From positions 2,847,001 through 2,911,000 of the forward strand of contig NZ_CP136920.1 in assembly GCF_033100135.1 (NCBI RefSeq): a stretch of DNA of 64,000 nucleotides. Reading direction: 5' to 3'. This document shows positions 5,919 to 28,618 of this stretch, in pieces (position 1 is the stretch's first letter; the number at the start of each line of letters is the position of its first letter). Below the pieces are notes generated by a model. The model made no database searches, was not told the DNA's origin, and was given only the letters and a program-made list of their open reading frames with translations. The DNA is from Rubellicoccus peritrichatus (GTDB lineage: Bacteria; Verrucomicrobiota; Verrucomicrobiia; Opitutales; Cerasicoccaceae). A program made the position numbers and the translations under genes.

Positions 5919-7673
5919 ATGAGCGGAATTGATTGGCTAGTTATCGGACTGTACTTCGTGGGACTTCTGGTCGTTGGTGCTTTGTTTGCTCGAAAAAACA
6001 CCAGCGCTTCAGAAATGTTTGTGGCTGGACGTTCCTCTCCCTGGTGGCTCTCAGGTATTTCAGCTTACATGACAATGTTCTCTGCAGGCACTTTTGTGGT
6101 CTGGGGCGGAATTACTTATGAGTTTGGAATGGTGGGGCCGGTCATTTGCTCGGTTTATGGTATCGCTGCATTCCTGGCTGGACGTTTTTTTGCCGGGCGC
6201 TGGCATGATACACGACTTTCAACTGCAGCTGAATTTGTTCAGCTTCGATTCGGCAAGGGCTCGTTTAATTTTTATACGCTTTATCGTGGGCTGTTTCTTT
6301 CAGTCCATGGCCTCTCGCTCTATGCGCTGGCAGTTATGCTCTGTCCTTTGATGCCTCTAGATGAAGGAAATTTTTTACGCGATCCGTCCACGGGAAATCT
6401 CTCGATTGATTGGGCCTGTACGATACTGGCCTTAATTGTAATTACTTATACAATGATTGGTGGTCTCTGGGCAGTGCTGATGACGGATATGCTCCAGTTT
6501 ATCGTTTTAAGTGCCTGCGTTATTGTCGTGGTTCCTCTGATCGTTAAGCTGGGCGGTAGTGCAGAACACATCGTTGCGAATTCACCCGAAGGATTTTTCC
6601 TTCCAACAGCGCCTGGTTTTTCATGGTACTTTCTTGTCGGATGGATGCTGGTAAACTGTTTTCAGCTCGGCGCAGAGTGGCATTTTATTCAACGACACCT
6701 GTGCGTGCCTACAGCCAAGGATTCACGCAAAGCGATGTATCTTTTTGGATGGCTTTACCTGATTACGCCGTTCCTCTGGATGGCGCCACCTTTGATTTTT
6801 CGGTCGATTGACGGAAGTGCAGATCCGCAGGAGTCATACATTCTGGCATGCAAGGCGGTATTGCCCGCAGGTTTGATCGGCTTGATGGTGGCGGCAATGT
6901 TTTCGGCAACGGCGAGTTCGCTTTCCAGTATTATGAACATGTTTGCGGGCGTTCTGACCGACGATGTTTATTGTAAGCGGATCCGCCCCAATGCCACTGA
7001 GGCACAGTCAGTGAAAGCAGGGCGAGTATTTACTCTGCTGATTGGCGTCTACATGCTCGCCGGCGCCTTGATTCTTCCTCGCCTGGGTAATTATCGCGAT
7101 ATCATTATCCTGATTGGTAGTTTGATTGGTTCCTCGGTTCTGTTGCCAACATTGTGGGCCTTGTTTTCCAAGCGAGTGGGGCAGGGGGTTGTCTGGTGGA
7201 CCTTATTCGGTGGCATTGGCGTGAGTCTGATTTACAAGTTTGGCTTTCAGGAAGGTGGTTGGTTCGAAGGGATACCGGCATTCGCTGGCATCATGAGTTT
7301 TGTTTCCGCCCACCATCGCGAGTGCGATCTATTGGTTGGGGTTCTGGCTCCGTTGATTATTCTTTGCATCGCAGAGTTTAGCGCAAAAGTGGAGAGCATG
7401 GAGTGGAAGCGCTTTCAAAAGGCAACTGCACGTTTACATACCGATGATTTGCCTGTTGCAATAACTTCATCCCGCTTGCCTTTACAGGTTCTGACCTGGA
7501 GCTTTGGTTTGCTCGCTGTAACCATGCTCGGATTGATTCCATTCAGCCAACAGGATTGGGCGGCATTGACGGCGATGGGATTGGTCTTATCGGCTTTGAG
7601 CGCAGGCTTTGCGTTTATCCTTGGAAAGAGTGGGGGGACTGAGTCCATTCAATCAGCGGAAGGAGAAGCCTAG
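5919..7673 (+). CDS. Sodium:solute symporter (SSS family)
   Basis: 584 residues with about 13-14 hydrophobic segments, as expected for the SSS family. Family signs are the start 'IDWLVIGLYFVGLLVVGALFARK', the 'F.AGRSSPWWLSGISAYMTMFSAGTFVVWGGITYEFG' loop after the first helix, and 'GLIGLMVAAMFSATASSLSSIMNMFAGVLTDDVY' in the middle, which carries the Ser/Thr-rich stretch near the sodium site. It sits in the inner membrane and probably imports a mono- or oligosaccharide released by the downstream enzymes. It is first in an operon with the GH86-like gene (57 bp gap) and the propeller hydrolase. Substrate not predictable. Confidence 0.9.
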   Translation: MSGIDWLVIGLYFVGLLVVGALFARKNTSASEMFVAGRSSPWWLSGISAYMTMFSAGTFVVWGGITYEFGMVGPVICSVYGIAAFLAGRFFAGRWHDTRLSTAAEFVQLRFGKGSFNFYTLYRGLFLSVHGLSLYALAVMLCPLMPLDEGNFLRDPSTGNLSIDWACTILALIVITYTMIGGLWAVLMTDMLQFIVLSACVIVVVPLIVKLGGSAEHIVANSPEGFFLPTAPGFSWYFLVGWMLVNCFQLGAEWHFIQRHLCVPTAKDSRKAMYLFGWLYLITPFLWMAPPLIFRSIDGSADPQESYILACKAVLPAGLIGLMVAAMFSATASSLSSIMNMFAGVLTDDVYCKRIRPNATEAQSVKAGRVFTLLIGVYMLAGALILPRLGNYRDIIILIGSLIGSSVLLPTLWALFSKRVGQGVVWWTLFGGIGVSLIYKFGFQEGGWFEGIPAFAGIMSFVSAHHRECDLLVGVLAPLIILCIAEFSAKVESMEWKRFQKATARLHTDDLPVAITSSRLPLQVLTWSFGLLAVTMLGLIPFSQQDWAALTAMGLVLSALSAGFAFILGKSGGTESIQSAEGEA

Positions 7674-7730: not shown

Positions 7731-9746
7731 ATGATGAAAATAGACTCAAAGACTCTTATTGGAACATTCGCAGCGACAGTCTGCCTGAACGCAGATGCTG
7801 GGAACGTTGAAACCGCTACGCTCAAAATTCAACCGAATGTAGAGCTGGAGTTGCGGGCAGGTCCACACGCTATCTCAGACGTGGATCGTGAACGGTATTT
7901 CCGCACCTACCATATTCCAGGAATGTTTACCGAGGAGCAGGCCGTGATTATGCAGGAGCTTGGCGTGTCGCCAGGTCGGGGCACTGGCCCTTATTTCGCG
8001 CACAGTGCCGGCGATACTGAGCGCGCAGGTTGGGATCCCGTCGTTAAAAAGCAGTTTGAGAAATACACGACCATTTATCAAAAAGCGGATGAACGCTACC
8101 CGGGGGTTATTCATGCCTTGGCTGGCGGCAACTATCCTCAATCCGAGGCGATTAAGGCGGAAGGCGATGAAGTCGAAGTCGACGCCACGATGATTGTGGA
8201 TCACAAGAACGGTGTGAAACCAGAAGATTTCGCTGCGAACGTGGATCTAATAGATCGTTGGATCTCAGCGATTAAAGAGAGTGGGGCTACGCCTCCCAAA
8301 TATTTTTCCCCGCTGAACGAACCCGATGCTGGCTGGAAGGGGTCACCTAATCCACCGGATGACCATAGCCAGTTTGCTCGACAATTGGCGTTGGCAATCC
8401 AGGATAAGCACCCTGAGGTCATGATTTCCGGCCCGAGTTCGGCCTGGGGTCACCCGAGAGCGGATTGGAAGCGTTGGACCGGCTCAGGTTGGGAGCGCCG
8501 ATTTATTGAGCAAGTCGGAGACATCGCCGGCGCTTACGATCTCCACATTTACAGCAAGGAATATTGGGCAGGGTCAGCTGAACATTCACGAAATTTTGAC
8601 CCCAAGCTGAAGCAACCGACTCCGAGCATGTATGACTCGTTTTTGAACGGCAATCTCTACGTCTGGGATTTTGGTAAGATTGATTCCTTTCTGGATCTGA
8701 TGTATGCCCATCATCAGGATACTTGGGATGAACCATCATTGCCTGTGATTATTACGGAGTTTGGGCGTCAGGGAATCACGCCGCAAAAAGGACCCTGGTT
8801 TAACGATTATGCTTACTACCTCTATGGAACGACTGTGACGCGTTTGTGGATGGCTTTCATGGACCGTCCGGAGATCGAATTGACGGTTCCATTTATTTTG
8901 CCAGTCAGCGACCCTGGTTATGCTCAGCAGCGCGGCCAGGCGTTGTTCAATCGTCCCGACTACCCTGATAGTAGTCATTTGGAGGCAACACTACTTTTGG
9001 ACTTCTATCGATTTTATCGTGGCTTTGAAGGTGTTCGTGTTCCGGCAAAATGGGAAGGTATTGATGCGGATAACCAGTTGGGTCATTTTGCTATAGCCGT
9101 ACGCCAAGGTGATGAGCTTTGGGTATTGCTACACAACGCACCCGATCGCGAACTTAAACTTAACCTTGATCTGGGATTTCCTGTAAAAGTAGGTGACGCA
9201 CGTATTGCACGTATGCGATGGGAGGGAGCTATACCAGAGGATTACACAGCTACTGAATTGAATGGCGAGTGGCGTATTGATTTTGAAGCCGAAGAGACTA
9301 TCGATCTGTCTAACTTGGTTCTGGCACCTGAAGAGACTGCTATTGTAAAGGTCAAACTGCCTGATGAATCGATTGAAGGCAAACGCATCGAGGAACGCAT
9401 TTATGCCGACAAGACGATTCAGCCACTAGGTAAAGAGCCTGTTGAGTATCACGTTGATCTGGGTACGGATCAAGTCGCCGAGGATGCAACCCTGGTGGTT
9501 AGTGTCGCGGCTCCAAAAGGTTTTAAAGCGGGAACGATTCTGTCGGCTACGATCAACGGCTACACTCAAAAGTTTGATCTCGGGATTGCCGAAGGAAGCG
9601 TTGATTTGCTGGCTCCTGTTCGTTTGCCGGTACCAGCAGAAGCGCTCAAGGCCGGTGACAATGTTGTTTCCATTGAATTAGCCGAGGGCAAGGCATGGAA
9701 TGCGAGCATTGGTTCGCTCAGAATCGACACGGTTCGTATTAACTAG
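7731..9746 (+). CDS. GH86-like endo-hydrolase (beta-agarase / beta-porphyranase type), secreted
   Basis: 671 residues (ATG at 7731, or the next codon). A probable signal peptide ends near residue 22-24. The catalytic TIM barrel covers about residues 40-450, with the clan GH-A pair visible: Glu197 in 'SPLNEPDAGW' (acid/base) and Glu343 in 'VIITEFGRQ' (nucleophile). The 'HIPGMFTEEQ...MQELGVSPGRGTGP' opening and the order of motifs fit GH86, whose characterised members cut agarose or porphyran. A C-terminal beta-sandwich region fills about 460-671. It is the second gene of the operon after the symporter, with the propeller hydrolase following after 19 bp. Agarase versus porphyranase cannot be decided from the sequence. 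Confidence 0.75.
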   Translation: MMKIDSKTLIGTFAATVCLNADAGNVETATLKIQPNVELELRAGPHAISDVDRERYFRTYHIPGMFTEEQAVIMQELGVSPGRGTGPYFAHSAGDTERAGWDPVVKKQFEKYTTIYQKADERYPGVIHALAGGNYPQSEAIKAEGDEVEVDATMIVDHKNGVKPEDFAANVDLIDRWISAIKESGATPPKYFSPLNEPDAGWKGSPNPPDDHSQFARQLALAIQDKHPEVMISGPSSAWGHPRADWKRWTGSGWERRFIEQVGDIAGAYDLHIYSKEYWAGSAEHSRNFDPKLKQPTPSMYDSFLNGNLYVWDFGKIDSFLDLMYAHHQDTWDEPSLPVIITEFGRQGITPQKGPWFNDYAYYLYGTTVTRLWMAFMDRPEIELTVPFILPVSDPGYAQQRGQALFNRPDYPDSSHLEATLLLDFYRFYRGFEGVRVPAKWEGIDADNQLGHFAIAVRQGDELWVLLHNAPDRELKLNLDLGFPVKVGDARIARMRWEGAIPEDYTATELNGEWRIDFEAEETIDLSNLVLAPEETAIVKVKLPDESIEGKRIEERIYADKTIQPLGKEPVEYHVDLGTDQVAEDATLVVSVAAPKGFKAGTILSATINGYTQKFDLGIAEGSVDLLAPVRLPVPAEALKAGDNVVSIELAEGKAWNASIGSLRIDTVRIN

Positions 9747-9765
9747 TTTATATTATTTAAAAATT

Positions 9766-10806
9766 ATGACTGAATTTGTTGACAAGTACTTATTTAAGCC
9801 GTCGTCGGAGCGGCATTTTTTCAAAATGCCAGGTTGGTTTGTCTGGTGTGGTTCGATGGTGCGCGATCCCGAGGGCTTGTATCATCTCTTCCTCTGCCGG
9901 TGGCCGGAAGAAACAAATCATGATGGATGGATCAATCGTTCTGAAGTAATTCGTGCCGAAGCATCATCACTGGAAGAGCCCTTTACCTTTAAAGAGGTTG
10001 TGATGACGCGGCGGGAAGGCGATTTCTGGGACGCCGATAATGTGCATAACGTATGCGTTCAGGAATATGACGGGCGCTATTATATGTATTATACTGGAAA
10101 TTGTGGTAATGGCGATTACTGGAGTCACCGCAACAACCAGCGAATCGGTGTCGCTGTTGCTGATAATGTAAGAGGGCCGTGGATTCGTCCTAGTCAGCCT
10201 TTATTGAAGCCCAGGCCTGGTCAATGGGATGGGCTCATGCATGCAAATCCGGTGACTACCCGTATGCCTGATGGACGTTATCTCCTCATGTTTAAAGGGG
10301 TAGCAGAAGGTGCCGAGATTCAAGGTTCGAATGTGCGCCATGGAGTGGCCTTTTCTGATACTCCCGTTGGGCCTTTCGAGATTCACCCGGATATCGTTTT
10401 CGACCTGGAAGGGGTTAGATTCCCATATGAAGATCCTGGGTTGTGGGTGGAGAATGACGTTATATATTGTTTGTTGAAAACAATGGACGGACGGTATTCA
10501 CCAACCGGCGATATGGGCATTCTTTTATTTCGATCGGTGGACGGTATTAACTGGGAGCCTGCTGAGCCTCACTTTGTGATAGACCGAAAAATTCAAATGG
10601 AAGATGGTAGCCAGCTTGAATTTGAACGGCTGGAGCGGCCTCAGATTTTTATCGATCACGACCAGAAACGTTATTTGCTGGCCGCTGTTCAACCTGGGAC
10701 AGTGGGGTTGGCACACAGCAATTCTCATATCGTTGGCCCATCCGGCCTGTCTGATAATGTACCCGTTTCCTATCACGTCCGTCTCGAGTGGACTGAGAAA
10801 CTATAG
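9766..10806 (+). CDS. Five-bladed beta-propeller glycoside hydrolase (GH43/GH117-like)
   Basis: 346 residues from the ATG at 9766; the frame is open upstream but overlaps the GH86 gene. Repeated blade motifs are visible: 'GSMVRDPEGLYHLFLCRW', 'YDGRYYMYYTGN', 'MHANPVTTRMPDGRYLLMFKG', 'YEDPGLWVENDVIYCLLK' and 'ERPQIFIDHDQKRYLLAAV'. These fit the GH43/62/32/68/117/130 fold group. Candidate carboxylates are the Asp of 'VRDPEG', the Glu/Asp of 'YEDPG' and the Glu of 'ERPQ'. No signal peptide is seen, so it likely acts inside the cell on imported oligosaccharides. A paralogue lies at 38105-39148. Exact GH family uncertain. Confidence 0.75.
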   Translation: MTEFVDKYLFKPSSERHFFKMPGWFVWCGSMVRDPEGLYHLFLCRWPEETNHDGWINRSEVIRAEASSLEEPFTFKEVVMTRREGDFWDADNVHNVCVQEYDGRYYMYYTGNCGNGDYWSHRNNQRIGVAVADNVRGPWIRPSQPLLKPRPGQWDGLMHANPVTTRMPDGRYLLMFKGVAEGAEIQGSNVRHGVAFSDTPVGPFEIHPDIVFDLEGVRFPYEDPGLWVENDVIYCLLKTMDGRYSPTGDMGILLFRSVDGINWEPAEPHFVIDRKIQMEDGSQLEFERLERPQIFIDHDQKRYLLAAVQPGTVGLAHSNSHIVGPSGLSDNVPVSYHVRLEWTEKL

Positions 10807-12195: not shown

Positions 12196-14187
12196 ATGAA
12201 ACTAACCCTGTTGGACTGGAGCATCGTTGGAGGTTTTCTCACCTTTTTGATCGTCATGGCTTACATGGCGCAACGCTACACGCGCAGCGTATCGGATTTC
12301 CTTGCCGCCAATCGTTCGGCGGGGCGTTACCTCCTGACGTTGGCAGATGGGATGGCTGGCCTTGGGGCAATTGCAGTCATCGCGAATTTTGAGAAATTTT
12401 ATCAGGCTGGTTTCGCGGCGAGTTGGTGGGGGTTGATGATGGCTCCGCTGGCAATGATCGCAGCACTTTCCGGGTGGGTTGCTTATCGTTATCGGGAAAC
12501 GCGAGCGATGACCATGGCACAGTTTTTCGAAATGCGGTACAGCCGCCGTTTTCGGATCTATGCAGGAATACTAGCCTGGGTGAGTGGCGTTTTAAACTAC
12601 GGAGTGTTCCCTGGCATTACCGCACTATTTCTTATTTACTTCTGTGGTCTACCGGAATCCTTTGAGATACTCGGTGTCACCTTTAGCACATTACCCTTTA
12701 TTATGGCGGTCATGCTTAGCATCGCTGCTTGTTTTACTTTGTTTGGCGGTATGATCGCGGTGATGATTACAGATTTTTTCCAGGGGCAATTTGTGAATAT
12801 TGTATTCCTTTTGATCATGGGGGTATTGCTTTGGAAGATCAGCTGGAGCGACATTATTACGACCTTGGAAGCTGCACCTAAGGGCAAGAGTCTGTTGAAT
12901 CCATTTGATCAAGGCGATATCAAGGATTTCAATTTTTGGTTTTTCGCCATATTCGGATTTAAGATATTCTACAACCGACTTGGCTGGCAGGGATCGCAGG
13001 GATACTTTTGTGCTGCAAAGTCACCACACGAACAGAAGATGGCTGGTGTATTAGCGGAATGGCGAAGTGGTTTAACTTACTTGATGTTTCTGATCATGCC
13101 AATTTGTGCTTACGTCGTCTTGCACCATGAAGGATACTCAAGTGTGGCAAATGAAGCGCAAGCGGCAATTAATCAGATTGAGGATGCACAGACGCAAAAG
13201 CAGATGCTGACACCAATGGTGATGAGCCAGATATTTCCTATTGGTTTGGTTGGTTTGTTTGCTGCGGCTATGATTGCAGCAGCAATTTCGACTGATGACA
13301 CTCAATTGCATTCGTGGGGAAGTATATTTATCCAGGATGTCGTCTTACCTTTCAGGAATAAGCCATTTACTCCAAAGCAGCAATTGGTTTTGCTGCGACT
13401 ATCTGTAATTGGTGTTGCCTTGTTTGCGTTCTTCTGGAGCTGGTTCTTTCCACTTAAGGACTATCTTTTCATGTATATGCTGTTGACCGGAACGATTTAT
13501 TTAGGTGGGTCCGGGGCCGTTATTATCGGAGGTCTATACTGGCGTCGGGCAACGACGCAAGGAGCATGGGTATCAATGACTGTTGGGCTGCTCATTGGTG
13601 CGGTAGGAATAACTTTGCAGGCGGTGTGGACCTCAGTTCCTGCCTTGGTTGAACTGACTCCAGAATTCCCGCTTAATGGGGCCTGGCTTGCGATGATTGC
13701 ATATATCTGCTCAATTATCAGCTTCGTTAGCGTTTCACTATTAACCTGTAAGCAGCCCTTTAATCTCGAGAAAATGCTGCACCGCGGAGAGTATGCATTG
13801 GCTGATTCCAGAGTCGAGGGAGATCACCGTGGCAATAGCCTCTTTGGGCGGCTTATTGGGTTCACTGATGAGTTCACACGTGGGGATCGATTCATTTATC
13901 GATTGAAATTCGGTTGGACCTTATTCTGGTTCGTATGCTTCATCATTGGCACTGTGTTCGGTTTGACAGTCGGAATATCGAATCGACTTTGGGGACAGTG
14001 GTGGTTGTTCATGGTTGTTCTAAGTGGAGTGGTTGGCACCATTACCATTGTGTGGTTTTTAATTGGAGGAACCAGGGATCTTTTTGAGCTTTTCGGAACA
14101 CTTAAGCAGGCCAGACGTGAGCCTGCTGATGATGGTTCAGTTCATGAGTTTGATGAACACCGTAATGATCATGATGTCGCTCCTTAA
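12196..14187 (+). CDS. Sodium:solute symporter (SSS family), second copy
   Basis: 663 residues, longer than the copy at 5919 because of extra C-terminal helices after about residue 560. Family signs are 'VSDFLAANRSAGRYLLTLADGMAGLGAIAVIANFEKFY' after the first helix, 'TMAQFFEMRYSRRFRIYAG' and 'PIGLVGLFAAAMIAAAISTDDTQLHSWGSIFIQDVV'. It has only low likeness to the other symporter and so probably carries a different compound. It lies 49 bp downstream of palindrome site 1, which places it in the putative regulon with the GH16 and GH110-like genes. It is followed by a convergent gene; no clear terminator is seen between them. Confidence 0.9.
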   Translation: MKLTLLDWSIVGGFLTFLIVMAYMAQRYTRSVSDFLAANRSAGRYLLTLADGMAGLGAIAVIANFEKFYQAGFAASWWGLMMAPLAMIAALSGWVAYRYRETRAMTMAQFFEMRYSRRFRIYAGILAWVSGVLNYGVFPGITALFLIYFCGLPESFEILGVTFSTLPFIMAVMLSIAACFTLFGGMIAVMITDFFQGQFVNIVFLLIMGVLLWKISWSDIITTLEAAPKGKSLLNPFDQGDIKDFNFWFFAIFGFKIFYNRLGWQGSQGYFCAAKSPHEQKMAGVLAEWRSGLTYLMFLIMPICAYVVLHHEGYSSVANEAQAAINQIEDAQTQKQMLTPMVMSQIFPIGLVGLFAAAMIAAAISTDDTQLHSWGSIFIQDVVLPFRNKPFTPKQQLVLLRLSVIGVALFAFFWSWFFPLKDYLFMYMLLTGTIYLGGSGAVIIGGLYWRRATTQGAWVSMTVGLLIGAVGITLQAVWTSVPALVELTPEFPLNGAWLAMIAYICSIISFVSVSLLTCKQPFNLEKMLHRGEYALADSRVEGDHRGNSLFGRLIGFTDEFTRGDRFIYRLKFGWTLFWFVCFIIGTVFGLTVGISNRLWGQWWLFMVVLSGVVGTITIVWFLIGGTRDLFELFGTLKQARREPADDGSVHEFDEHRNDHDVAP

Positions 14188-14371
14188 GGCATTTTGAAGC
14201 GATGAAGTGTAATGATTAAGATGGGAATTAGCCACAGACTTTGCTAACCAGGTTTGTTGGTTTGCGTAACTCATGCAGTCGGAATCATTATCAATGATTT
14301 TTGCTGATTGAAAACTATTTCCAATCAAGGTCTTGAATATGTCGTAGACTTAATTACTGCAAAGTGCGTAG

Positions 14372-16054: not shown

Positions 16055-16355
16055 TTATATAGGATGTATTTTATTTATCTTAGAATTATTAAATTGCTCT
16101 AATAGCAAAAAGTCAAATAGCAAATGCCTGAGTCCACTAAATCAAAGTGCAAGGCTGATCGTGAGCCTGCTGCCATTATTTGGCTCAGATTACTGAGTTT
16201 AGTCCGTTACCCAGTTGTTGAAATCGATGCAGCAGGTTTTAGACGAGCAGTACTGAGGCTCATGCTGCATCTTCTAGTTCAGATACTCAGTTCAGTAGCT
16301 TGATTAGTGCTCCTGTGATCTATTTCGTCTTGGGAAATACGAATAGTCTGAAAGG
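16055..16355. other. Intergenic region between the IclR-family gene and the GH110-like gene
   Basis: About 300 bp without a coding frame. It contains palindrome site 2 (16094-16108) and an extra half-site ATAGCAA at 16117-16123, 15 bp away in the same orientation as the half-site ATAGCAA of site 2. The remainder shows no clear structure. Confidence 0.6.
16094..16108. promoter_or_regulatory. Shared palindromic operator, site 2 (TTGCTCTAATAGCAA)
   Basis: One base departs from perfect symmetry. It lies 39 bp upstream of the GH110-like gene starting at 16054 (minus strand). A further half-site ATAGCAA occurs at 16117-16123, so two dimers might bind side by side. Confidence 0.75.
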
Positions 16356-17075: not shown

Positions 17076-17216
17076 TTATCGGGATTCATTTATAACAATT
17101 TTTTTGAGAATTCCAGCATCAACCTGTGTTTCTTTTTCAATATGGATTCTGCTGAATTCTAGATCTTGATATGAAAGATATGAGTATACTTTTATGAATC
17201 GGAAATGATAATCAAA

Positions 17217-17241
17217 AAAGCCGTCCAATCAGGACGGCTTT
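17217..17241. terminator. Rho-independent terminator of the PEP-CTERM gene at 17261-18130
   Basis: AAAGCCGTCC (17217-17226) and GGACGGCTTT (17232-17241) form a perfect 10-bp stem with a 5-base loop. On the minus strand a T-run follows (complement of the A-run at 17214-17219). It lies 20 bp after the stop codon. Confidence 0.85.
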
Positions 17242-17260
17242 GTGGATGCTTTTCAAAATA

Positions 17261-18130: not shown

Positions 18131-18221
18131 TGTTAGATTATTGGATTGTGATTTGTTTCTAATTGAAGGTGAGTGGGAGTGAATGAAATCTGCTTAGATT
18201 GTTCACGATTTTAGTTTCATA

Positions 18222-19631
18222 TTAATTTACATTGTCAGTGAGGTGAATTGGCAGAGATGACAGCTCTTCAGGGGGCAGGGCATACTTACGCTCATAATCT
18301 TTATTCCACCACCAGAGCGGCTGCATAGCATTCGCTTCCCATGCTAAGAGCATTGTGCGCATAGTATCAACCTTATTGGGATTCTGTTTAGCTAAGTTTT
18401 TCTTTTCGCAAGGATCAGATTCAATGTGGAAAAGCGACTCGCTGCCTTCCCAGTTTATATATTTCCAACCCCTATGTAATAATGCTTTACGTCCCTTATA
18501 TCCATTGAAACGCCAGGCGAGTGTGGCATGCGGATCTCCTACACGATCGCCTCGCAAATATGGCATCAGGTCACGCCCTTCCAGTTCCCAATCCGGACTA
18601 AGTGATCCGCCCGCCATGCGGATAAAGGTAGGCAATAGGTCAAAAGATGAAGTGACTCCATCAAAATCTACTCCTTTGGGTATACCTCCTGATGGCCAGC
18701 TAACTAGCATGGGAACTCGTACGCCACCTTCAAACATTGAACTTTTATGCCCGCGTAGTGGAAGGTTGCTGGAGTGGTTTGATCTGCCTGCGCCGCCGTT
18801 ATCGTTTAAGAAAATGACCATTGTATTGTCCAGCTCGCCTCTGGCTTTCAAAAGCTCCAGTATGCGTCCTACTTCACGATCCATGGCCAAGGTCATGGCA
18901 GCGTTGATTTTACGCTCTTCACTTTCAAATTCTACATGATCGAGCGCATGTATGTCTTCCTCCTTGGCGTCCATTGGGCTGTGTGGAGCAGTAAAAGACA
19001 AATACATGAAGAATGGTTTATTCGGATCCTGATCGAAGTGGTCGTTTAGGAATTCAATGGCTTTATCACCAAATAAATCCGTTACATAAAGGCCTGCTTC
19101 CTCCTGGAACCGTTGACCATTCTCAACCAAAGCTTTGCCAAGTGAAGGGTTCTTAATTTTGTGGTAACTGCGTGCGCCTTCTAGAATTCCAAAAAAACGG
19201 TCGAAGCCGCGGTTTTGCGGTTGATATGGCTCAGGTATGCCAAGGTGCCATTTTCCTATCATATATGTTCCATAACCTAGCTCTTGAAGGTATTCGGGCA
19301 TGAGTTTAATGTCCAGTGGTAGTCCCATCGGATGTGGGTTGGGTAGATTGTTACCATGCCCAAAGAATTGTTGGTACTTTCCAGATAGCAAACCTGCTCT
19401 TGATGGGCTGCAGACCGGGCCAGATACATAGGCTCGGGTAAAGCGTACCCCGGTGTTTGCAATAGAATCTAAGTGCGGTGTTTGATGTGTTGGGCTGCCT
19501 TGAAAACCAAAATCTGCATATCCAGCATCGTCTGAAAAAAGTAAAAGTATATTGGGCTGATTGGCAACGGTGCTTGCATGGCATAGCGCTCCCAATAGTA
19601 GCAAAAGATATGGTTTGAATCCGAAACTCAT
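18222..19631 (-). CDS. Formylglycine-dependent sulfatase (S1 family), secreted
   Basis: 469 residues with a signal peptide of about 19-23 residues. The active-site signature is C-S-P-S-R at residues 74-78; Cys74 would become formylglycine through an FGE enzyme. Metal-site motifs are also present: 'LLLFSDDAGYADFGFQG' near the start, 'MIGKWHLG' and 'FLNDNGG'. The length fits S1 polysaccharide sulfatases, which remove sulfate esters from algal galactans, fucans or glycosaminoglycans. It follows the pseudopilin-like gene (135 bp gap) on the same strand and may be transcribed with it. The S1 subfamily and sulfate position cannot be told from the sequence alone. Confidence 0.92.
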   Translation of the reverse strand: MSFGFKPYLLLLLGALCHASTVANQPNILLLFSDDAGYADFGFQGSPTHQTPHLDSIANTGVRFTRAYVSGPVCSPSRAGLLSGKYQQFFGHGNNLPNPHPMGLPLDIKLMPEYLQELGYGTYMIGKWHLGIPEPYQPQNRGFDRFFGILEGARSYHKIKNPSLGKALVENGQRFQEEAGLYVTDLFGDKAIEFLNDHFDQDPNKPFFMYLSFTAPHSPMDAKEEDIHALDHVEFESEERKINAAMTLAMDREVGRILELLKARGELDNTMVIFLNDNGGAGRSNHSSNLPLRGHKSSMFEGGVRVPMLVSWPSGGIPKGVDFDGVTSSFDLLPTFIRMAGGSLSPDWELEGRDLMPYLRGDRVGDPHATLAWRFNGYKGRKALLHRGWKYINWEGSESLFHIESDPCEKKNLAKQNPNKVDTMRTMLLAWEANAMQPLWWWNKDYERKYALPPEELSSLPIHLTDNVN

Positions 19632-20680: not shown

Positions 20681-20703
20681 TATTTAGATGATTTTTGTTC
20701 TTC

Positions 20704-22452
20704 ATGAAATCCTTCGCCCCATTTATTTATCACTATCTCAGACCGCTCAGCATTGTTTTCGGATCCTTCATCTTTCTATCTGTTGCTTGTGGAAAGGTGG
20801 AAACACCGGCCATGGTAGGACAATTACATACGGATCAAGCATTCGACCTTGAGGAAATGCAATCAATCCAACCAATGATTAACCCCACAGGTGAAGAACT
20901 CGTACTTGTTTTTGAAGATGATTTTGAAGGCGATCAACTTGATTGGAATGTCTGGAAATCGCGTGAATATGGTGAAACTGGTATTAAAAACGATACCCTT
21001 CGTGGGCCTGACAATATTGAAGTTCGAGATGGAAATTTACTCCTTCATGTCCGTAAGGAAGAACGCGAGCACAGAGGCAAGACTTCAAAGTGGACTGCAG
21101 GTTACGTCTATATGCAAGAGCCACTAGAGATTAATAGTTATCTCGAAGCGCGCTTTAAATCAGGTAATGCTTCCGGCGTAAATAATGCATTCTGGCTGGC
21201 TTGGGCTGATTTGACAGATATCAGCGAGGTGCGCAATAAGTACGAGATTGATATCGTCGAGTGTCGCCGCTACGGCTCAGAAGATAACCTTGGGCGTGCT
21301 AATATTGCCTGGCACGACTGGAAAGGATATCGGTATATTAAAACAGAAGATGGTAAGCATAGTCACATCGCACAAGGAATGAACTTTCCACATGTTTGGG
21401 ATGAGTATCATGTCTGGGGATTATGGTTCGGAGAGAATGAGATCATATATACATTCGATGGTAAAGAAGTCTGGCGTGGCAAGACTCATTACAAGTATGT
21501 TGATCAATGGTGGACTGGTGTTGGAAAGCTTGATAAATGGTTTTCTGATTATGAGAAAGAGGCCTATGGGCGGCATGGACAGGATGACTGGGTGTACCGT
21601 GCCGGCTATAATGGTGATTTAGTGAAAGTGATTTTTAGTAATCTGCCATGGGGTAGCTCCTGGACGCCACTCACAGATGAGGCCGATGGCGACGTTATGT
21701 CAATTGACTACCTTCGAATTTACCGTCCCCTTCGTGTTCTGAATCGTGAACCTTTAGAGGTCATTAGTTTTCAAGATCAGAATAGAGTAAAAATTGATGG
21801 TGAATCCGCTTCAGTTCCAAATGATAGGTTATTTCTGGCACCTTCGACTAAGGTGAAATTTGACCTCGAAGTTCCTGTTGCGATTGAAGGAGACAAGCCA
21901 CATTATTTTAGTTTGGTGGTTAGGAAAGATTCGGCAACTGACCTGTCTATCAACTTTTTTAATCCGATGGGCTCAACAAGTCTGGCTACAAGGATTGATA
22001 TTGATAATGATATGGCCGTTGGATTCCGTGATAAGTCAGTTGAATGGGAGCATAAGGGAGATGTCTTTAAAAAAATGGCGTCAACGAAAACAGCATTTCC
22101 GGCTATCGAACAAGAGGTGCCTTTCTTTTCCGATGAAGAAGATATCTTATTAGTGATTCGTGTTACTCCCGGTGAGTCAAATGGTCGCGACGCAGTGAGT
22201 ATGACGGCATTTATGTTGCCATTGGTTGAAGAACCGAAAGAGCCGTATTTTTACGCAAACATTGATTCCAAAGGAAACACAAGTATGACCAATGGTTGGT
22301 CGATTAACCAAAAATTGCGGAGTAAAGCTTACTTGTCTTCGGTATCGGTAACCAACGGTGGTCCGGGAGATCTGATTCTGGGTGCATTTAGATCTGGCAG
22401 TAGCTTTAGGAGTGTGCTGCCCGAAATAGTCCAGCAGTCGCTAACCAACTAA
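20704..22452 (+). CDS. GH16-family endo-hydrolase, outer lipoprotein (paralogue A)
   Basis: 582 residues from the ATG at 20704. A TTG three codons earlier is open, but the ATG start is conserved in paralogue B. The lipobox LSVAC gives Cys29. The GH16 jelly-roll domain covers about residues 62-345 and carries the catalytic motif E-I-D-I-V-E (Glu181 nucleophile, Asp183, Glu186 acid/base), the six-residue ExDxxE form found in agarases, porphyranases, kappa-carrageenases and laminarinases. A C-terminal region of about 230 residues of unknown fold follows and is shared with paralogue B. It probably cuts the polymer at the cell surface. Palindrome site 4 lies 23 bp upstream. Confidence 0.88.
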   Translation: MKSFAPFIYHYLRPLSIVFGSFIFLSVACGKVETPAMVGQLHTDQAFDLEEMQSIQPMINPTGEELVLVFEDDFEGDQLDWNVWKSREYGETGIKNDTLRGPDNIEVRDGNLLLHVRKEEREHRGKTSKWTAGYVYMQEPLEINSYLEARFKSGNASGVNNAFWLAWADLTDISEVRNKYEIDIVECRRYGSEDNLGRANIAWHDWKGYRYIKTEDGKHSHIAQGMNFPHVWDEYHVWGLWFGENEIIYTFDGKEVWRGKTHYKYVDQWWTGVGKLDKWFSDYEKEAYGRHGQDDWVYRAGYNGDLVKVIFSNLPWGSSWTPLTDEADGDVMSIDYLRIYRPLRVLNREPLEVISFQDQNRVKIDGESASVPNDRLFLAPSTKVKFDLEVPVAIEGDKPHYFSLVVRKDSATDLSINFFNPMGSTSLATRIDIDNDMAVGFRDKSVEWEHKGDVFKKMASTKTAFPAIEQEVPFFSDEEDILLVIRVTPGESNGRDAVSMTAFMLPLVEEPKEPYFYANIDSKGNTSMTNGWSINQKLRSKAYLSSVSVTNGGPGDLILGAFRSGSSFRSVLPEIVQQSLTN

Positions 22453-22576
22453 TAGCGACAGCCATTTAATACAATAAAGACTTAGGAATACGGAATTCGG
22501 CTCCGTAGTTAAATGAGTGTAGAATCTGCTCTATGGAGTTAGCTTTTCCGCCGTAAAAGCGGACGATAGAATTAAT

Positions 22577-23866
22577 ATGAGTGTAACATTTAAAATCGGG
22601 ATTTGTGGTGCAGGACAATTTGCACAGTGCTTCATTCCACTGTTTAAGATGCATCCTGGGGTTAGCGACGTGGTGCTATGTGATGTCGATGCTGCGCGAT
22701 GCAAGTCATCTGCATGCAAGCATGGAATTCAAAGTATGGTCGAAAAATTTGACGACTTATTGAACAGTGATATCGACGCTGTTGCCATCTTTACACCTAG
22801 ACATGACCATGCGGAGTTCTCCATAAAAGCCTTGAAGGCAGGCAAGCATGTCTATTGCGCCGTACCTGCGGCACAAACGATTGATGAGCTTCAAGCTTTG
22901 ATTAATGCTGTCAATGAAACCGGTCTGATCTACATGATGGGTGAAACCAGTTATTATTATCCAGCATCTATCTACTGTCGTCACCGTTATAAGGCAGGTC
23001 ATCTTGGTGATTTTGTTTATGGTGAAGGTGAATATTTACACGATATGGCCCATGGTTTTTATAGCGCATATCGTCATAATGGTGGAACTGAATGGAAAAA
23101 GCGCGCAGGATTCCCCCCAATGCTATATCCAACACACTCGACGAGTATGTTAGTATCAGTTACGGGAGCTTCATTAAGTCGAGTGTCCTGCCTCGGATAT
23201 CGAGATAAACATGCTGATGGGATTTTTCAGAAAAATGCTAACTACTGGGATAACGAATTCAGCAATGAAACAGCCCTCTTTCGTACAACTAACGGTGGTA
23301 TGTTTCGAGTAAATGAATTTCGTCGAATTGGAATAGGAGCAGGCAACTCTGTTCGTACCAGTATCTTTGGTACTTACGGTAGTTTTGAGCAACAGTCTGA
23401 TTCGCATATATGGTCTGATATCAACAAGAAGCTCTATTCCCTAAATGAGCTACTCGACTGTGATTGCCACGATAAGGGAACTGTCGAAGATGGTATCCAG
23501 TCTGATTTTTTTACTGGAACAGCCATCGTTCATCCTACGGATCGACTCCCCGACTCGTTCAAAGGATTACGAAATGGCCATTATGGCTCACATCATTTTT
23601 TAGTAGATGATTTTGTTAGGAGCTTACAGACTGGATATCTGCCTCCGAATCATGTCTGGGCTGCTGCCAAGTACACTATCCCCGGAATAATAGCGCATCA
23701 ATCGGCGCTGAAGGAAGGTGAACTTATTGATATTCCTGAACTCGGAGAGCCACCGGCACAAGCAGAGTATTTGGAGAAAACGCTGCAAACTATATCTGAA
23801 GCTGGACAAAAACATATCGATTCAACTGCACCCGACCTTACAGCAGTTGATATGGGTGAAGGTTAA
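22577..23866 (+). CDS. Gfo/Idh/MocA-family oxidoreductase with altered EKP motif
   Basis: 429 residues, no signal peptide. The N-terminal Rossmann fold has 'IGICGAGQFA' (residues 7-16) and 'DIDAVAIFTPRHDHAEFSIKALKAGKHVYC'. The motif that is normally E-K-P here reads A-V-P (residues 95-97), so the usual catalytic Lys and preceding Glu are missing. The C-terminal domain (about 125-380) includes 'YHEGEY'-like 'YGEGEYLHDM' and 'YPTHSTSMLVSVTGASLSRVSCLGY', as in the family. It lies between two GH16 paralogues on the same strand, 124 bp after the first. It has no palindrome of its own and is probably read with paralogue A. It may work on a released sugar, or be a non-canonical member. Confidence 0.88.
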   Translation: MSVTFKIGICGAGQFAQCFIPLFKMHPGVSDVVLCDVDAARCKSSACKHGIQSMVEKFDDLLNSDIDAVAIFTPRHDHAEFSIKALKAGKHVYCAVPAAQTIDELQALINAVNETGLIYMMGETSYYYPASIYCRHRYKAGHLGDFVYGEGEYLHDMAHGFYSAYRHNGGTEWKKRAGFPPMLYPTHSTSMLVSVTGASLSRVSCLGYRDKHADGIFQKNANYWDNEFSNETALFRTTNGGMFRVNEFRRIGIGAGNSVRTSIFGTYGSFEQQSDSHIWSDINKKLYSLNELLDCDCHDKGTVEDGIQSDFFTGTAIVHPTDRLPDSFKGLRNGHYGSHHFLVDDFVRSLQTGYLPPNHVWAAAKYTIPGIIAHQSALKEGELIDIPELGEPPAQAEYLEKTLQTISEAGQKHIDSTAPDLTAVDMGEG

Positions 23867-24014
23867 TAGAGTAAATTTATCGATTCATTTTATGATTTTA
23901 AGTATATCCTTTATCTCTAAATAGGTTAAGTAAATTTTAGCTGACTCATTCACGCTATCTACTATTTGCTTGCTCCTAATCATAGGTCAGAGATCAGGTT
24001 TTAATTTTTAAATC

Positions 24015-24029
24015 TTGCTTTTATAGCAA
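24015..24029. promoter_or_regulatory. Shared palindromic operator, site 5 (TTGCTTTTATAGCAA)
   Basis: Identical to site 4 and in the same position relative to the conserved ATG (22 bp upstream of 24052). An ATG at 24034 lies only 4 bp after it, which argues that 24052 is the true start. Confidence 0.75.
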
Positions 24030-24051
24030 TTTAATGATGGCTTTGTTTTTC

Positions 24052-25779
24052 ATGAAACCCTTTATCCTATTGTTTTCTCATTGCTATCGATTGCTCGGCA
24101 TTGCTGTTCTCTTATTTTGTTTTGGCTGCGAGGATATGAAAACACCGGCAGTGGTAGAGCAGTTGCATCCTAAGGTAGAATTGGATGGCAATGAACCACT
24201 CTCGGCTCAGCCAATGATAAACCCTACAAATGAAGAACTCGTGCTGGTGTTTGAGGATGATTTCAATGGTGATCAACTTGATTTGGATGTGTGGAAGTCA
24301 CGTGAGTATGGTGAAGCCGGGATTAAGCACGATACACTGCGCGGCCCGGATAATCTTGAAGTCCGGGATGGTAATTTACTCCTTCATGTTCGTAAGGAAG
24401 AACGCGAGCACAAGGGCCAAAAAGCGAACTGGACTGCGGGCTACGTCTACATGCAAGAGCCACTCCCGCTTAACAGTTATGTCGAGGCTCGTTTTCGACC
24501 AGGTAATGCCTCAGGCGTGAATAACGCATTCTGGCTGGCCTGTGTGAATGATCCCGAGCGGACCAATGTCAGTAATAAGTACGAGATTGATATTGTGGAA
24601 ACGCGTCGTGATGTTTCCAAAGATAATGTTGGACGTGCTCATCTTGCCTGGCATGATTGGAAGGGATATCAATACATTTTTACTGAAGACGGAAAGCATG
24701 GCCATATTGCTCAGGGGACGAACTTTTATCATCCTTGGGGGGAGTATGATGTCTGGGGACTTTGGTATGGTGAAAATGAGATTATTTATACCTTCAATGG
24801 CAAGGAAGTTTGGCGAGGCCGGACTCATCATGAGTATATTGACCAATGGTGGACTGGTGTCGGCAAGTTTGACAAATGGCACCCTGATTATGAGAAGGAA
24901 GCCTATGGGCGGCATGGACAGGATGATTGGTCGTATCGCGCAGGTTACAATGGCGACCGGGCTAAAGTGATTTTTAGTAATATTCCATGGGGAAGCCCAT
25001 GGACGCCGTTAACGGATGAAGCGGACGGCGATGTGATGGCGATTGACTATCTAAGAATTTATCGTCCTCGCCGTTTGTTAAATGACGAACCATCAGAGGT
25101 GATTGTCTCTACAGATGAAGATCATGTTCAGATTCAAGGTGATGCCAGCCAATTTTCTAGAGATTTCGTGACGCTTGGAGGATCGTCTTCCATTGAATTC
25201 GATCTGGCTAATCCGATTGCGATAGAACGCGATTTTCCGTATTACTTCAGCCTGGAAGTAAAAAAAGACTCCCTCACAGATTTCTCGATACAGTTCTTTA
25301 ATCTTTTGGGTGCAACGACACTCTCAGCTCGTGTAGACGCTGAAAATGATCTTGCCATTGGATTGCGGGATAAGCCTTCTGATTGGCATCATAAAAGTGC
25401 GATTTTCGAAAAGATGGCATCAACTAAAACTGCCTTTCCTTCGTCGCAGAGCGAAACACCGTTTTTCATGACTGGTGAAGATACTCTACTGGTGATACGT
25501 GTTACTCCAGGTGATCGTAATGGACGCGACGCCGTAAGCATGATGGCTTTCTCACTGCCCTTGGATGAGGATATAGACGAACCCTATTTTTACGCGAATA
25601 TCGATTCCCATGGAAACACTAACGTGACTAATGGTTGGGCGATTAACCACAAGGCACGCAGCAAAGCTTACCTGGCTTCTGTATCTCTTACCAATAGTGG
25701 CCCTGGTGAACTTAGTTTAGGAGCATTTCGTTCGGGCAACACTTTCAAGAGTGTACTGCCTGATATATCTTCGAACTGA
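24052..25779 (+). CDS. GH16-family endo-hydrolase, outer lipoprotein (paralogue B)
   Basis: 575 residues from the ATG at 24052; ATG codons at 24034 and 24037 are in frame but nearly touch the operator, and the 24052 start aligns with paralogue A. The lipobox CFGC gives Cys26. The catalytic motif is E-I-D-I-V-E at residues 178-183. Long stretches match paralogue A almost exactly ('EELVLVFEDDF', 'WTAGYVYMQEP', 'GNASGVNNAFWLA', 'AYGRHGQDDW'), while the loop after the catalytic motif differs (Thr-Arg-Arg-Asp in place of Cys-Arg-Arg-Tyr), so specificity may differ. The roughly 230-residue C-terminal region is also shared. A small secreted protein gene follows after 34 bp. Confidence 0.88.
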   Translation: MKPFILLFSHCYRLLGIAVLLFCFGCEDMKTPAVVEQLHPKVELDGNEPLSAQPMINPTNEELVLVFEDDFNGDQLDLDVWKSREYGEAGIKHDTLRGPDNLEVRDGNLLLHVRKEEREHKGQKANWTAGYVYMQEPLPLNSYVEARFRPGNASGVNNAFWLACVNDPERTNVSNKYEIDIVETRRDVSKDNVGRAHLAWHDWKGYQYIFTEDGKHGHIAQGTNFYHPWGEYDVWGLWYGENEIIYTFNGKEVWRGRTHHEYIDQWWTGVGKFDKWHPDYEKEAYGRHGQDDWSYRAGYNGDRAKVIFSNIPWGSPWTPLTDEADGDVMAIDYLRIYRPRRLLNDEPSEVIVSTDEDHVQIQGDASQFSRDFVTLGGSSSIEFDLANPIAIERDFPYYFSLEVKKDSLTDFSIQFFNLLGATTLSARVDAENDLAIGLRDKPSDWHHKSAIFEKMASTKTAFPSSQSETPFFMTGEDTLLVIRVTPGDRNGRDAVSMMAFSLPLDEDIDEPYFYANIDSHGNTNVTNGWAINHKARSKAYLASVSLTNSGPGELSLGAFRSGNTFKSVLPDISSN

Positions 25780-26548: not shown

Positions 26549-28618
26549 TTAGTTTTGGACGAACCTAACTGCGTCTGCTCTTAATAAGCCACTTTGGCCT
26601 TGATTGGTAATCTTATACGATACTTGTCCGGTGTAGGGATACGTGCCCAAATAGCGCCAACCGCTGCCTCCGGTTGTATAGTTAACATTATGTTGAGCTG
26701 TTGTGTTGTCACTTTCCACTGAGATTAGTGCATTTGAATCCGAGCTCGAGTGTTGAACCACATAGATGTAAACATCGTAGTTGGATGATTTCGGAGCGAT
26801 GAAATTCCATTCCGCTTGTGCGCCATTCCATCCGGCGTAGCGAGTACTTGACCCATTGTATCCGGTTAGCGAGCTATCATTGAATGAACCAGAGACTTCG
26901 GAGTATGTCTCGTCATTATTGCTATTGTCAATGATGACAGTATTACCGGTAACACTTAATCCAGTGGCACTGCTTGACTCAAAGCGCATGCCTTTGTAGA
27001 CGTTTTCAAAGGTGTTTCCAGATAGGTTAATGCCATGGACATCTGCAACATAGATTGACGGAATTGTTGAATCGTAGAGTTGATTTGAGAATTGGTTGTT
27101 TGAGATCACTGCATTACGAAGCTTATCCTCTGTTGCAACATTATGGGCATTGTAAAGGATGATACTTCCGGCTGGTTGGCCCCATTTGGCAAACCAGCCA
27201 CAGCTATCAAAACTTGAATCAAGAATTTGTATATTGTTTCCTGTAACACCTTCTGCCGCATGTGCACCCATATGGATTGCTTCAAACATAATTTTACGGT
27301 GCGTTGTGTTCTGGACCGTAATGTCATTGGTAAGAAGGATCATCGACGCACCGGCGATGTTCTCAAAGTTACTGTTGGTTATACTGACAGAGCTTGGAGC
27401 TAGTCCGCCAACGCGCAGATTGGTTCCTGTTTGAGCAAAACTGGGTGGAGCTGCGGTGAGTGTGACCGCATAGTAGCTTTCGTCATTGACCATGTTATAT
27501 TGACTGGCTGAACTGACTGTTCTATCGAACCACTGCCCGTTTGAATTAACGAATGTCAGTGTACTCCCGGCAGCAATCGGCTGGCTGTATGTGTTCAGCT
27601 CCACTGCCATGTTGAGACTGTTTGAGCCAGTTAAACCTAGGACTCTAGCATAAGGGCCACGCACGACCAGACCGTCCCAGCGAACACCTGTAATATCAAG
27701 CCCCGATGCTGTCACTGTTCCCGTGCTTCGCAGGATGTGAATGCCGTCTCGTGGTCCCACTGCCAATTGATTGCCATCCGGGCGCATGACAATGTCTTTC
27801 ACAGTAATATCCGATGATGCAGTAACCATCATTGCCATATTTACTGCATTGCGAATGATTAGGTTTTCAAAAGTAACTCCATCGCTTTTGGTTGCTTGTA
27901 TCTGGTGTTTTCCATCCCAGCCGTAATGCCATGACATGTATTCACCAACTTCGATATCATTATAAAAATTGAGCCCTGATGTATTGTTCAAATCCATGAT
28001 GCGGTTTGTTGAATCATGGATGGTCCAGTTGCCTGGGGAAGTGACGTAGCTCAGGCTTTCAACACCTTCCTTCAGATCGAGTGTATCTGGCATCCAGGCA
28101 TTGGCGGAGTAGCACGGCATTCCGGCGTCCATTGGTAAGTCATCAAAAATAGCTACCCGTACGCCTTGGGTTCCATTTGAGAGCGTATATTTTTCTGTGA
28201 TTTCACCGGCACTGCAAAGGTGTGGCGTATTATCAATGATAAAGTTCTTGAGTGTGATATTCGTGCTATTGAAGATGTAGGCAGTGCGGGGAGGACTGGC
28301 CATCGATTCTACTGTCAGATGACGTTTTAAAATCGTTTTCGGCTCACCGGTTGGCGATGTTGCTCCCTGTAGTACGATATTTGATTTACTGCTGATTTTA
28401 ATAAAGCGATCAAGCTCAGGAGAGGGATTAATTAAATCATAAACACCTTCTTCAAAGATGATCGTACTATTGGGATTATTAGCAATAGCAGTATTGATTT
28501 GTGCAGTGTCATCGGCATCATCATTTGCATCGGCATTGTAATCAGATACATATACGATGTTAGCCTGAGCAAGGTTGCATGTAAGTACGATCAATAAGAC
28601 AAGTATATAGTTCTTCAT
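26549..28618 (-). CDS. Secreted GH110-like beta-helix protein with golvesin-like C-terminal domain
   Basis: 689 residues. A signal peptide ends near residue 19 (LAQA|N). Beta-helix repeats cover about residues 25-560 with the same order of motifs as the cytosolic paralogue at 14372 ('MRPDGNQLAVGPRDG', 'ITGVRWDGLVV', 'NSNFENIAGASMILL', 'IQILDSSFDSCGWFAKWG'), matching the GH110 alpha-1,3-galactosidase layout. The final 130 residues ('VIIDNSN...YSEVSGSF', 'AGWNGAQAEWNFIAPKSSNYDVYIYV', 'GWRYLGTYPYTGQVSYKI', 'LRADAVRFV') fit the golvesin/xanthan-lyase C-terminal beta-sandwich, probably sugar-binding. Palindrome site 6 lies about 98 bp upstream. Confidence 0.7.
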   Translation of the reverse strand: MKNYILVLLIVLTCNLAQANIVYVSDYNADANDDADDTAQINTAIANNPNSTIIFEEGVYDLINPSPELDRFIKISSKSNIVLQGATSPTGEPKTILKRHLTVESMASPPRTAYIFNSTNITLKNFIIDNTPHLCSAGEITEKYTLSNGTQGVRVAIFDDLPMDAGMPCYSANAWMPDTLDLKEGVESLSYVTSPGNWTIHDSTNRIMDLNNTSGLNFYNDIEVGEYMSWHYGWDGKHQIQATKSDGVTFENLIIRNAVNMAMMVTASSDITVKDIVMRPDGNQLAVGPRDGIHILRSTGTVTASGLDITGVRWDGLVVRGPYARVLGLTGSNSLNMAVELNTYSQPIAAGSTLTFVNSNGQWFDRTVSSASQYNMVNDESYYAVTLTAAPPSFAQTGTNLRVGGLAPSSVSITNSNFENIAGASMILLTNDITVQNTTHRKIMFEAIHMGAHAAEGVTGNNIQILDSSFDSCGWFAKWGQPAGSIILYNAHNVATEDKLRNAVISNNQFSNQLYDSTIPSIYVADVHGINLSGNTFENVYKGMRFESSSATGLSVTGNTVIIDNSNNDETYSEVSGSFNDSSLTGYNGSSTRYAGWNGAQAEWNFIAPKSSNYDVYIYVVQHSSSDSNALISVESDNTTAQHNVNYTTGGSGWRYLGTYPYTGQVSYKITNQGQSGLLRADAVRFVQN

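Follow-up and report, generated by a model that had tools for sequence, protein, structure and literature searches.

A gene in the window (the whole stretch of 64,000 nucleotides of Rubellicoccus peritrichatus DNA that we analysed) encodes a Gfo/Idh/MocA protein, P0001, that reads A-V-P in the place of the E-K-P motif. This raises the question of whether the replacement is a private mutation or a sequencing error, the mark of a dead enzyme or the sign of a different chemistry. The gene and the motif are as follows.

22577..23866, + strand: P0001, Gfo/Idh/MocA protein of the A-V-P clade; intact ORF with an ATG start, 429 amino acids
22859..22867, + strand: A-V-P in the E-K-P place, codons 95-97 of P0001; from the ORF translation and the homologue rows

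P0001 is an intact Gfo/Idh/MocA protein without the motif lysine

Codons 91-97 of P0001 are CAT GTC TAT TGC GCC GTA CCT and translate to H-V-Y-C-A-V-P. The other two Gfo genes of the window keep E-K-P, reading D-I-Y-C-E-K-P (45542-46873, + strand) and H-V-Y-M-E-K-P (50073-51440, - strand). This difference, reported in the initial annotation, was thus confirmed both from the codons and from the alignment. P0001 belongs to the Gfo/Idh/MocA superfamily, as PF01408 matched its residues 5-122 with 70.2 bits against the Pfam cut-off of 24. The host genome (one contig of 5,798,774 bases) has 46 PF01408 hits. The lysine is present at the motif in 40 of these and absent in three, and three partial matches (L242, L243 and L245) lie outside this count; five own-genome loci had no aligned ORF in the motif reading. 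The hits devoid of the lysine are P0001, L009 (E-A-R) and L244 (T-A-N), the last one being under the Pfam cut-off. As the Rossmann domain lies at the very start of the protein, P0001 probably stays in the cytoplasm, and its substrates would be sugars that have been imported. No signal peptide was seen by eye.

The missing lysine is shared by a large clade

Searched against 387 same-phylum genomes, P0001 matched in 87 of them, the host counted, with E values of 1e-30 or lower. From the 122 other places listed, 69 rows (the best 37 and a spread) were taken for the motif counts. Genome contigs were also scanned with an alignment of the clade, and the best 80 of 576 confirmed candidates were kept. 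The phylum rows comprise 64 A-V-P, 4 T-V-P and 1 S-V-P, and the best 80 of the 576 scan candidates comprise 73 A-V-P, 4 E-V-T, 2 S-V-P and 1 E-V-P. In all 149 rows, therefore, A-V-P occurs 137 times, T-V-P and E-V-T four times each, S-V-P three times and E-V-P once, and lysine never. Two pairs of rows are identical between the two sets (L048 = L167 and L088 = L181, Lentisphaerae/Lentisphaeria records); merging them leaves 147 distinct rows, 135 of them A-V-P. At 90% identity the 149 rows fall into 124 groups. A stop codon lies within L051 and L186, and some rows end at contig ends; L051 was omitted from alignments A1 and A2, and L186 together with 18 more of the 80 from A3.

Counted by hand, 40 of the 80 scan loci belong to Actinobacteria (among them Arthrobacter, Streptomyces and Clavibacter), and the rest are from Clostridia, Lentisphaerae, Victivallales, Armatimonadetes, Chloroflexi, Gemmatimonadetes, Latescibacteria, Planctomycetota, Acidobacteria and Opitutae. 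Judged from these alignments, the missing lysine is a trait of a large and old clade that extends across many bacterial phyla. The initial annotation had proposed to look among homologues for a clade that conserves A-V-P, and the 137 rows provide one. It had also named close homologues with an intact E-K-P as the evidence that would speak against it; we looked for these among the 149 rows and found 0; the closest homologue is only 58% identical. A private mutation or a sequencing error was rejected on the same counts.

Neither the same-phylum genomes nor the contig scan yielded a homologue above 58% identity, and four genomes of the same family gave no match at E 1e-30. The gene therefore looks accessory in its lineage.

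The K-D-H triad is broken and the GH109 catalytic residues are kept

GH109 enzymes are NAD+-dependent alpha-N-acetylgalactosaminidases. In the alignments with both solved GH109 proteins, 2ixa and 6t2b, Val occupies the place of the lysine (E-V-S and E-V-P). Passages of PMC7535918 and PMC5969746 describe the catalytic K-D-H triad of the Gfo/Idh/MocA proteins as the Lys of E-K-P and the Asp-His pair of D-x-x-x-H. P0001 does not fit this definition, having A-V-P, Leu183 for the Asp, and only His187 of the triad retained. At position 183 the 149 rows have Leu 47, His 30, Phe 23 and Tyr 20 times, and Asp only once. According to passages of PMC10755693, the residues proposed for the GH109 enzyme AmGH109A (6t2b) are His404 as base/acid at C3, Tyr226 for proton transfer at C2, and His259 at the glycosidic bond. 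In our alignment His404 lies in G-H-G-G, Tyr226 in A-Y-I-H and His259 in Y-P-T-H, and in the profile alignment they fall on His335, Tyr153 and His187 of P0001, respectively. This correspondence was counted along the profile alignment with one offset of 25, and comes from the alignment, not from superposed coordinates. The matching stretches of P0001 are given below.

23024..23044, + strand: E-G-E-Y-L-H-D, residues 150-156, in which Tyr153 corresponds to AmGH109A Tyr226; from the alignment with 6t2b and 2ixa
23126..23137, + strand: Y-P-T-H, residues 184-187, in which His187 corresponds to AmGH109A His259; from the profile alignment
23579..23581, + strand: His335, within N-G-H-Y-G-S-H, corresponding to AmGH109A His404; from the profile alignment

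Val96, Glu123, Tyr184 and His187 are kept in all 149 rows, Gly11 in 148, an acidic residue at position 36 in 147, and His335 in 146, with gaps in the other three. Tyr153 and His155 are kept in 145 rows each (Tyr153 being His in the four T-V-P rows) and Asp156 in 144; the scan patterns lay within residues 86-94 and 148-156, so that the conservation of Tyr153, His155 and Asp156 is partly built in for the 80 scan rows, and the 69 phylum rows were found independently of these patterns.

The K-D-H triad has lost two of its three residues, yet other residues are fixed across phyla; the comparison indicates that P0001 has a different active site and not a decayed one. Loss of the triad Lys and Asp could also be expected of a catalytically dead protein that senses NAD(H) or a sugar, the regulatory pseudo-enzyme of the initial annotation, and passages of PMC7535918 report that the K93A change in RgNanOx abolishes both activity and NAD+ binding. 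Such a protein is hard to reconcile with the retention of Gly11, the acidic residue at 36, Glu123, Tyr153, His187 and His335 across many phyla at the above counts, or with the GH109 enzymes, which by the alignment work with Val in the lysine place (activity according to passages of PMC10755693). We consider this alternative very improbable.

P0001 lies beside GH109, outside it

In a search with P0001 alone against the PDB sequences, DgpA was the best match (E 2.4e-16), and GH109 2ixa was found at 2.9e-9. With a profile of 32 clade members the best match was the GH109 enzyme NagA (2ixa; E 7.7e-32), over positions 2-379 of 382. PmdC (2.1e-30) and DgpA (6.1e-30) ranked second and third, each over part of the profile, and GH109 6t2b followed them over the full length (E 1.6e-27). 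The GH109_C domain (PF21252) had no match in P0001 even at E 10. Some of its A-V-P relatives pass the cut-off of this domain, L087 for example with 35.5 bits against 27. A GH109_C search matched in 78 of 194 same-phylum genomes, and all 20 of the proteins read from it are devoid of the lysine (E-V-P, E-V-G or E-I-G).

We constructed a quick IQ-TREE tree of 83 rows with SH-aLRT as the only support and few outgroup families; besides P0001, it held 30 of the 69 phylum rows, 25 of the 80 scan rows, 13 of the 20 GH109 proteins and 14 of 41 own-genome proteins. One branch (SH-aLRT 99) separates 69 rows (53 A/T/S-V-P rows including P0001, 13 GH109 rows and three E-V-T/E-V-P rows) from the 14 host Gfo proteins, 13 of which carry the lysine. 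The 13 GH109 rows form a clade of their own (100), and the 53-row set with P0001 forms a separate one (98), placing P0001 outside GH109; the three E-V-T/E-V-P rows stand apart from both. P0001 pairs with L113 of Phytoactinopolyspora endophytica (95). The program warned of 13 long end branches; the 12 that it named all belong to host Gfo proteins, and the branching order among these is unreliable. In the most economical reading of the sampled rows (A-V-P clade, GH109 and host Gfo proteins), the lysine would have been lost once, before the split of GH109 and the A-V-P clade, and the Glu would have changed to Ala (or Thr, Ser) in the A-V-P clade only.

P0001 and GH109 (2ixa NagA, 6t2b AmGH109A) share the Gfo fold, Val in the lysine place, the Y-P-T-H, Y-x-H and G-H-x-G motifs that carry the three catalytic residues, a Glu at the place of Glu123, and a hydrophobic residue where the D-x-x-x-H enzymes have Asp. 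They differ in the motif Glu, which is Ala in P0001, in their tree clades and in PF21252. Moreover, P0001 has N-E-F-R-R in place of the 2ixa stretch that holds Tyr307, which we take to be an active-site residue. By its sequence, P0001 is thus a Gfo/Idh/MocA protein with the GH109 residue set that stands beside GH109; we did not file it in GH109 because of the missing GH109_C match and its position outside the GH109 clade. In L009 (4947074-4947424 of the host contig), another host Gfo protein devoid of the lysine (E-A-R), the remaining motif stretches did not align with those of GH109.

The predicted fold does not separate glycosidase from dehydrogenase

An AlphaFold2 model of P0001 from 62 sequences had a mean pLDDT of 92.3 and a pTM of 0.92. 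Foldseek with this model gave levoglucosan dehydrogenase first and 2ixa 27th. In VIA-align 2 the Z scores were 36.1 for the dehydrogenase 5uhw (337 residues), 35.1 for levoglucosan dehydrogenase (336) and 35.0 for GH188 (337), and 32.4 and 32.3 for GH109 6t2b and 2ixa, with 365 residues each, the longest alignments among the 50 entries listed. The modelled fold alone does not decide between a glycosidase and a dehydrogenase, so the residues have to carry the argument. The K-D-H sugar dehydrogenases (levoglucosan, 6a3j; scyllo-inositol, 5yab) resemble P0001 in the Rossmann domain, the fold (Z 35.1 and 33.9) and the triad His, but have the triad Lys and Asp, both of which are absent from P0001.

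GH188 comprises NAD+-dependent sulfoquinovosidases with the Gfo fold, and its member ArSqgA (8qc5) was the GH188 structure aligned above. Passages of PMC10755693 state that His193 and His321 of ArSqgA match His259 and His404 of AmGH109A, and that Lys107 and His193 act on the C3-OH and Glu189 on the C4-OH. The two histidines probably correspond to His187 and His335 of P0001, and Lys107, by its position, is probably the lysine of E-K-P. P0001, which shares 15% identity with ArSqgA, has Val96 and Leu183 at the motif places that, judged from the motifs, probably correspond to Lys107 and Glu189. As GH188, an NAD+-dependent glycosidase family, has Lys107 on the C3-OH, loss of the lysine alone does not mean a glycosidase.

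Part of the window looks like a red-algal galactan cluster

The initial annotation had placed the gene between two GH16 genes. The position was confirmed; the GH16 call itself is weak. The surrounding genes are listed below.

5919..7673, + strand: sodium:solute symporter, possible importer (NCBIfam)
7731..9746, + strand: possible glycoside hydrolase, weak match to 5ta1 (PDB, E 8e-4)
9700..10806, + strand: GH117-like protein, nearest to 3,6-anhydro-alpha-L-galactosidases (PDB 4ak6, E 1.2e-14); Pfam GH43
12196..14187, + strand: sodium:solute symporter, possible importer (Pfam, NCBIfam)
18222..19631, - strand: S1 sulfatase, nearest solved protein exo-4S-kappa-carrageenan sulfatase 6prm (E 7.7e-102; Pfam, PDB)
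20695..22452, + strand: GH16-like protein (carrageenase/laminarinase-like), the neighbour upstream of P0001 and by eye a lipoprotein; weak matches
24034..25779, + strand: the other GH16-like protein, a paralogue of the 20695-22452 protein and likewise by eye a lipoprotein; weak matches

The 3,6-anhydro-alpha-L-galactosidases related to the 9700-10806 protein are presumably GH117, and 5ta1 presumably GH86. Pfam gave nothing on the two GH16-like proteins at E 0.001. Their PDB matches were GH16 laminarinases and carrageenases (E 6e-5 to 4e-4), and the NCBIfam kappa-carrageenase model, whose cut-off is 350 bits, matched at E 5.6e-8 and 2.8e-9 with 32 and 37 bits. Both proteins contain E-I-D-I-V-E, which we take to be the GH16-type catalytic motif, and on these sequences the two paralogues may represent a new GH16-type group.

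From its gene content, the region of 5919-19631 and 20695-25779 looks like a cluster for red-algal sulfated galactan. The nearness of a sulfatase is by itself a weak sign in a host with 52 PF00884 hits. A terminator search of the gaps that separate P0001 from the GH16-like genes gave 0, against 4.9 in shuffled sequences, which is uninformative. Two minus-strand proteins related to each other were also observed at 26549-28618 and 14372-16054, one having a beta-helix match and the other a Golvesin_C domain.

Transporters, GH36 and sulfatases accompany the homologues

We examined 100 homologue loci, searching for neighbours at E 1e-10 and 40% of the query; these loci are not independent, as some overlap (L167 and L197 are on one contig) and those from Micrococcaceae and Streptomyces are near relatives. 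A homologue of a sugar ABC binding protein was present at 27 loci, all of them among the 40 actinobacterial ones counted by hand, two ABC permeases at 33 and 32 loci, and a LacI regulator at 24. A GH36 query matched at 16 of the 100 loci. Thirteen of these matches, all actinobacterial, have 43% identity or above and include the locus that supplied the query; the other three are weaker (22-30%). Pfam GH36 (Melibiase) was found in the three GH36 loci scanned (E 3.4e-113 or better), and a Melibiase domain adjoins the same-phylum homologue L193 (E 1e-28). As the arrangements in Arthrobacter, Kocuria and Phycicoccus differ in order and strand, the association of these genes has been kept through rearrangement, although most of the genomes are close kin.

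Among 88 neighbours of 15 loci, Pfam recorded AraC-type regulators five times, DUF4838 four times and GH123 three times (within the 25 of 103 families listed), and among 86 neighbours of 18 loci SBP_bac_1 six times and LacI five times (within the 25 of 121 families listed). Gene calls in the high-GC loci were greedy and partly spurious, and the surroundings of L113 were called by codon-position GC. In this locus, a sulfatase ORF begins two bases after the Gfo ORF; its nearest solved relatives are the GalNAc-6-sulfate sulfatase 6ust (E 4.7e-164) and the kappa-carrageenan sulfatase 9fo1 (6.6e-135). Relatives of the window sulfatase occur at four of the 100 loci (L112, L113, L176 and L199), and those of the AraC-type regulator at five. 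The GH16-like, GH117/43-like, symporter (12196-14187), GH116, amidase and 226-aa genes of the window had no homologues in the 100 loci, which makes the carrageenan setting a peculiarity of this window among them. A partner gene common to all the homologue loci was not found. Galacto-configured sugars are the established substrates of GH109, GH36 and these sulfatases, and this company suggests that the substrate of P0001 would be galacto-configured as well.

These neighbourhoods also bear on whether P0001 could be a sugar (galactoside) dehydrogenase or epimerase, which would oxidise C3 or another carbon with exchangeable NAD(P), use His335 and His187 for the Lys, and leave the cleavage to another enzyme. 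The presence of GH36 in the same cluster at the 13 actinobacterial loci fits this alternative, as do the zinc-dehydrogenase domains of three among the 86 scanned neighbours and the sequence and fold searches with P0001 alone, both of which put plain dehydrogenases first. However, the GH109 residues are kept and the Lys and Asp lost, which is the GH109 pattern, and a separate eliminase does not recur: AP_endonuc_2 occurs in 2 of the 86 neighbours and in at least one of the 88 (L194), where it is not among the 25 families listed. Furthermore, the annotated cluster of Kitasatospora fiedleri runs permease, permease, binding protein, Gfo, and has no annotated glycosidase within 9 kb of the Gfo gene in a gene table that is incomplete. 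We regard a dehydrogenase or epimerase as somewhat unlikely.

An NAD+-retaining glycosidase is the preferred reading

With moderate confidence, we favour P0001 as an oxidoreductive glycosidase of the cytoplasm that retains its NAD+ and is a relative of GH109 standing outside that family. The analysis itself established the motif and how well it is conserved, the matching of residues along the profile, the fold and the tree; retention of the cofactor and the catalytic cycle are inferred, as is a galacto-configured substrate, the last from the neighbouring genes. The absence of the lysine from all 149 rows and from the 20 GH109_C proteins, GH109 as the best profile match, the GH109_C match of relatives such as L087, the kept Tyr/His/His, the side of the tree shared with GH109, the longest structural alignments and the sugar ABC transporter beside the actinobacterial genes count for this reading; the dehydrogenases that P0001 alone finds first in sequence and fold searches, the lack of a GH109_C match, the T-V-P rows with His for Tyr153, the lysine of GH188 and the GH36 gene already in the Micrococcaceae cluster count against it. 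Of the different chemistries suggested initially, it is the NAD-retaining glycosidase-like role that gains indirect support, from a lysine loss common to GH109 together with the kept Tyr/His/His.

In the proposed cycle, bound NAD+ would first oxidise the sugar at C3 by taking a hydride; the C2 proton would be removed and the aglycone then eliminated. Water would add, and the same NAD cofactor would reduce C3 again, giving net hydrolysis. His335 would act at C3 and Tyr153 at C2, and the glycosidic oxygen would be served by His187. Such a cycle would make no use of the Lys and Asp found in the classical K-D-H triad. The substrate may be an imported mono- or oligosaccharide left by GH16 and sulfatase action on a red-algal galactan. 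Passages of PMC10755693 state that NAD+-dependent glycosidases can cut both alpha and beta links.

The first half of this cycle would be shared by a lyase, another of the initial suggestions, that ends at the elimination step and passes an unsaturated or anhydro keto-sugar on to other enzymes of the cluster. Anhydro sugars do occur in red-algal galactans, and GH127 (PF07944) had no match in the host genome (3 of 14 control genomes were positive), which would agree with a lyase; the GH129 search was positive in no control genome, so its absence from the host is uninformative. On the other hand, hydration and reduction should need only residues that are already kept, and 3,6-anhydro-galactose lacks the free 3-OH that would be oxidised. 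A lyase is, in our view, very improbable. For want of that 3-OH on the substrate, P0001 as a 3,6-anhydro-galactosidase was also disfavoured.

A characterised member of the clade was not found, and the NCBIfam models matched by P0001 fell far under their cut-offs (best 70.8 bits against 355). Literature on the A-V-P clade was not recognised from titles and abstract beginnings, the family name being searchable only as separate words, and the passages of PMC5969746, PMC7535918, PMC6262041 and PMC5698469 mention no Gfo protein in a carrageenan cluster. Two plasmid records match the clade, one under a generic name and one carrying no annotation. The present label in Kitasatospora fiedleri, 'Gfo/Idh/MocA family oxidoreductase', suggests a dehydrogenase; if the glycosidase reading is true, many such genes would be glycosidases missed by present annotation. 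Tentatively, the A-V-P clade could even be a new glycoside hydrolase family, of cytoplasmic NAD+-dependent galactosidases in many phyla that work by transient oxidation of C3 with neither the Lys nor the Glu of E-K-P, and that here finish fragments of sulfated red-algal galactan after the sulfatase and GH16.

The clade also provides a natural test of the roles of the two E-K-P residues, the loss of Lys being common to GH109 and that of Glu being particular to the clade. The lysine-less E-V-T/E-V-P proteins (L186 and L188-L191; Limnochordia, Chloroflexota and Armatimonadota) keep Tyr153 and His187. In the T-V-P members L105, L108, L109 and L110, Tyr153 is replaced by His and His155 by Gln, substitutions that may mark another activity.
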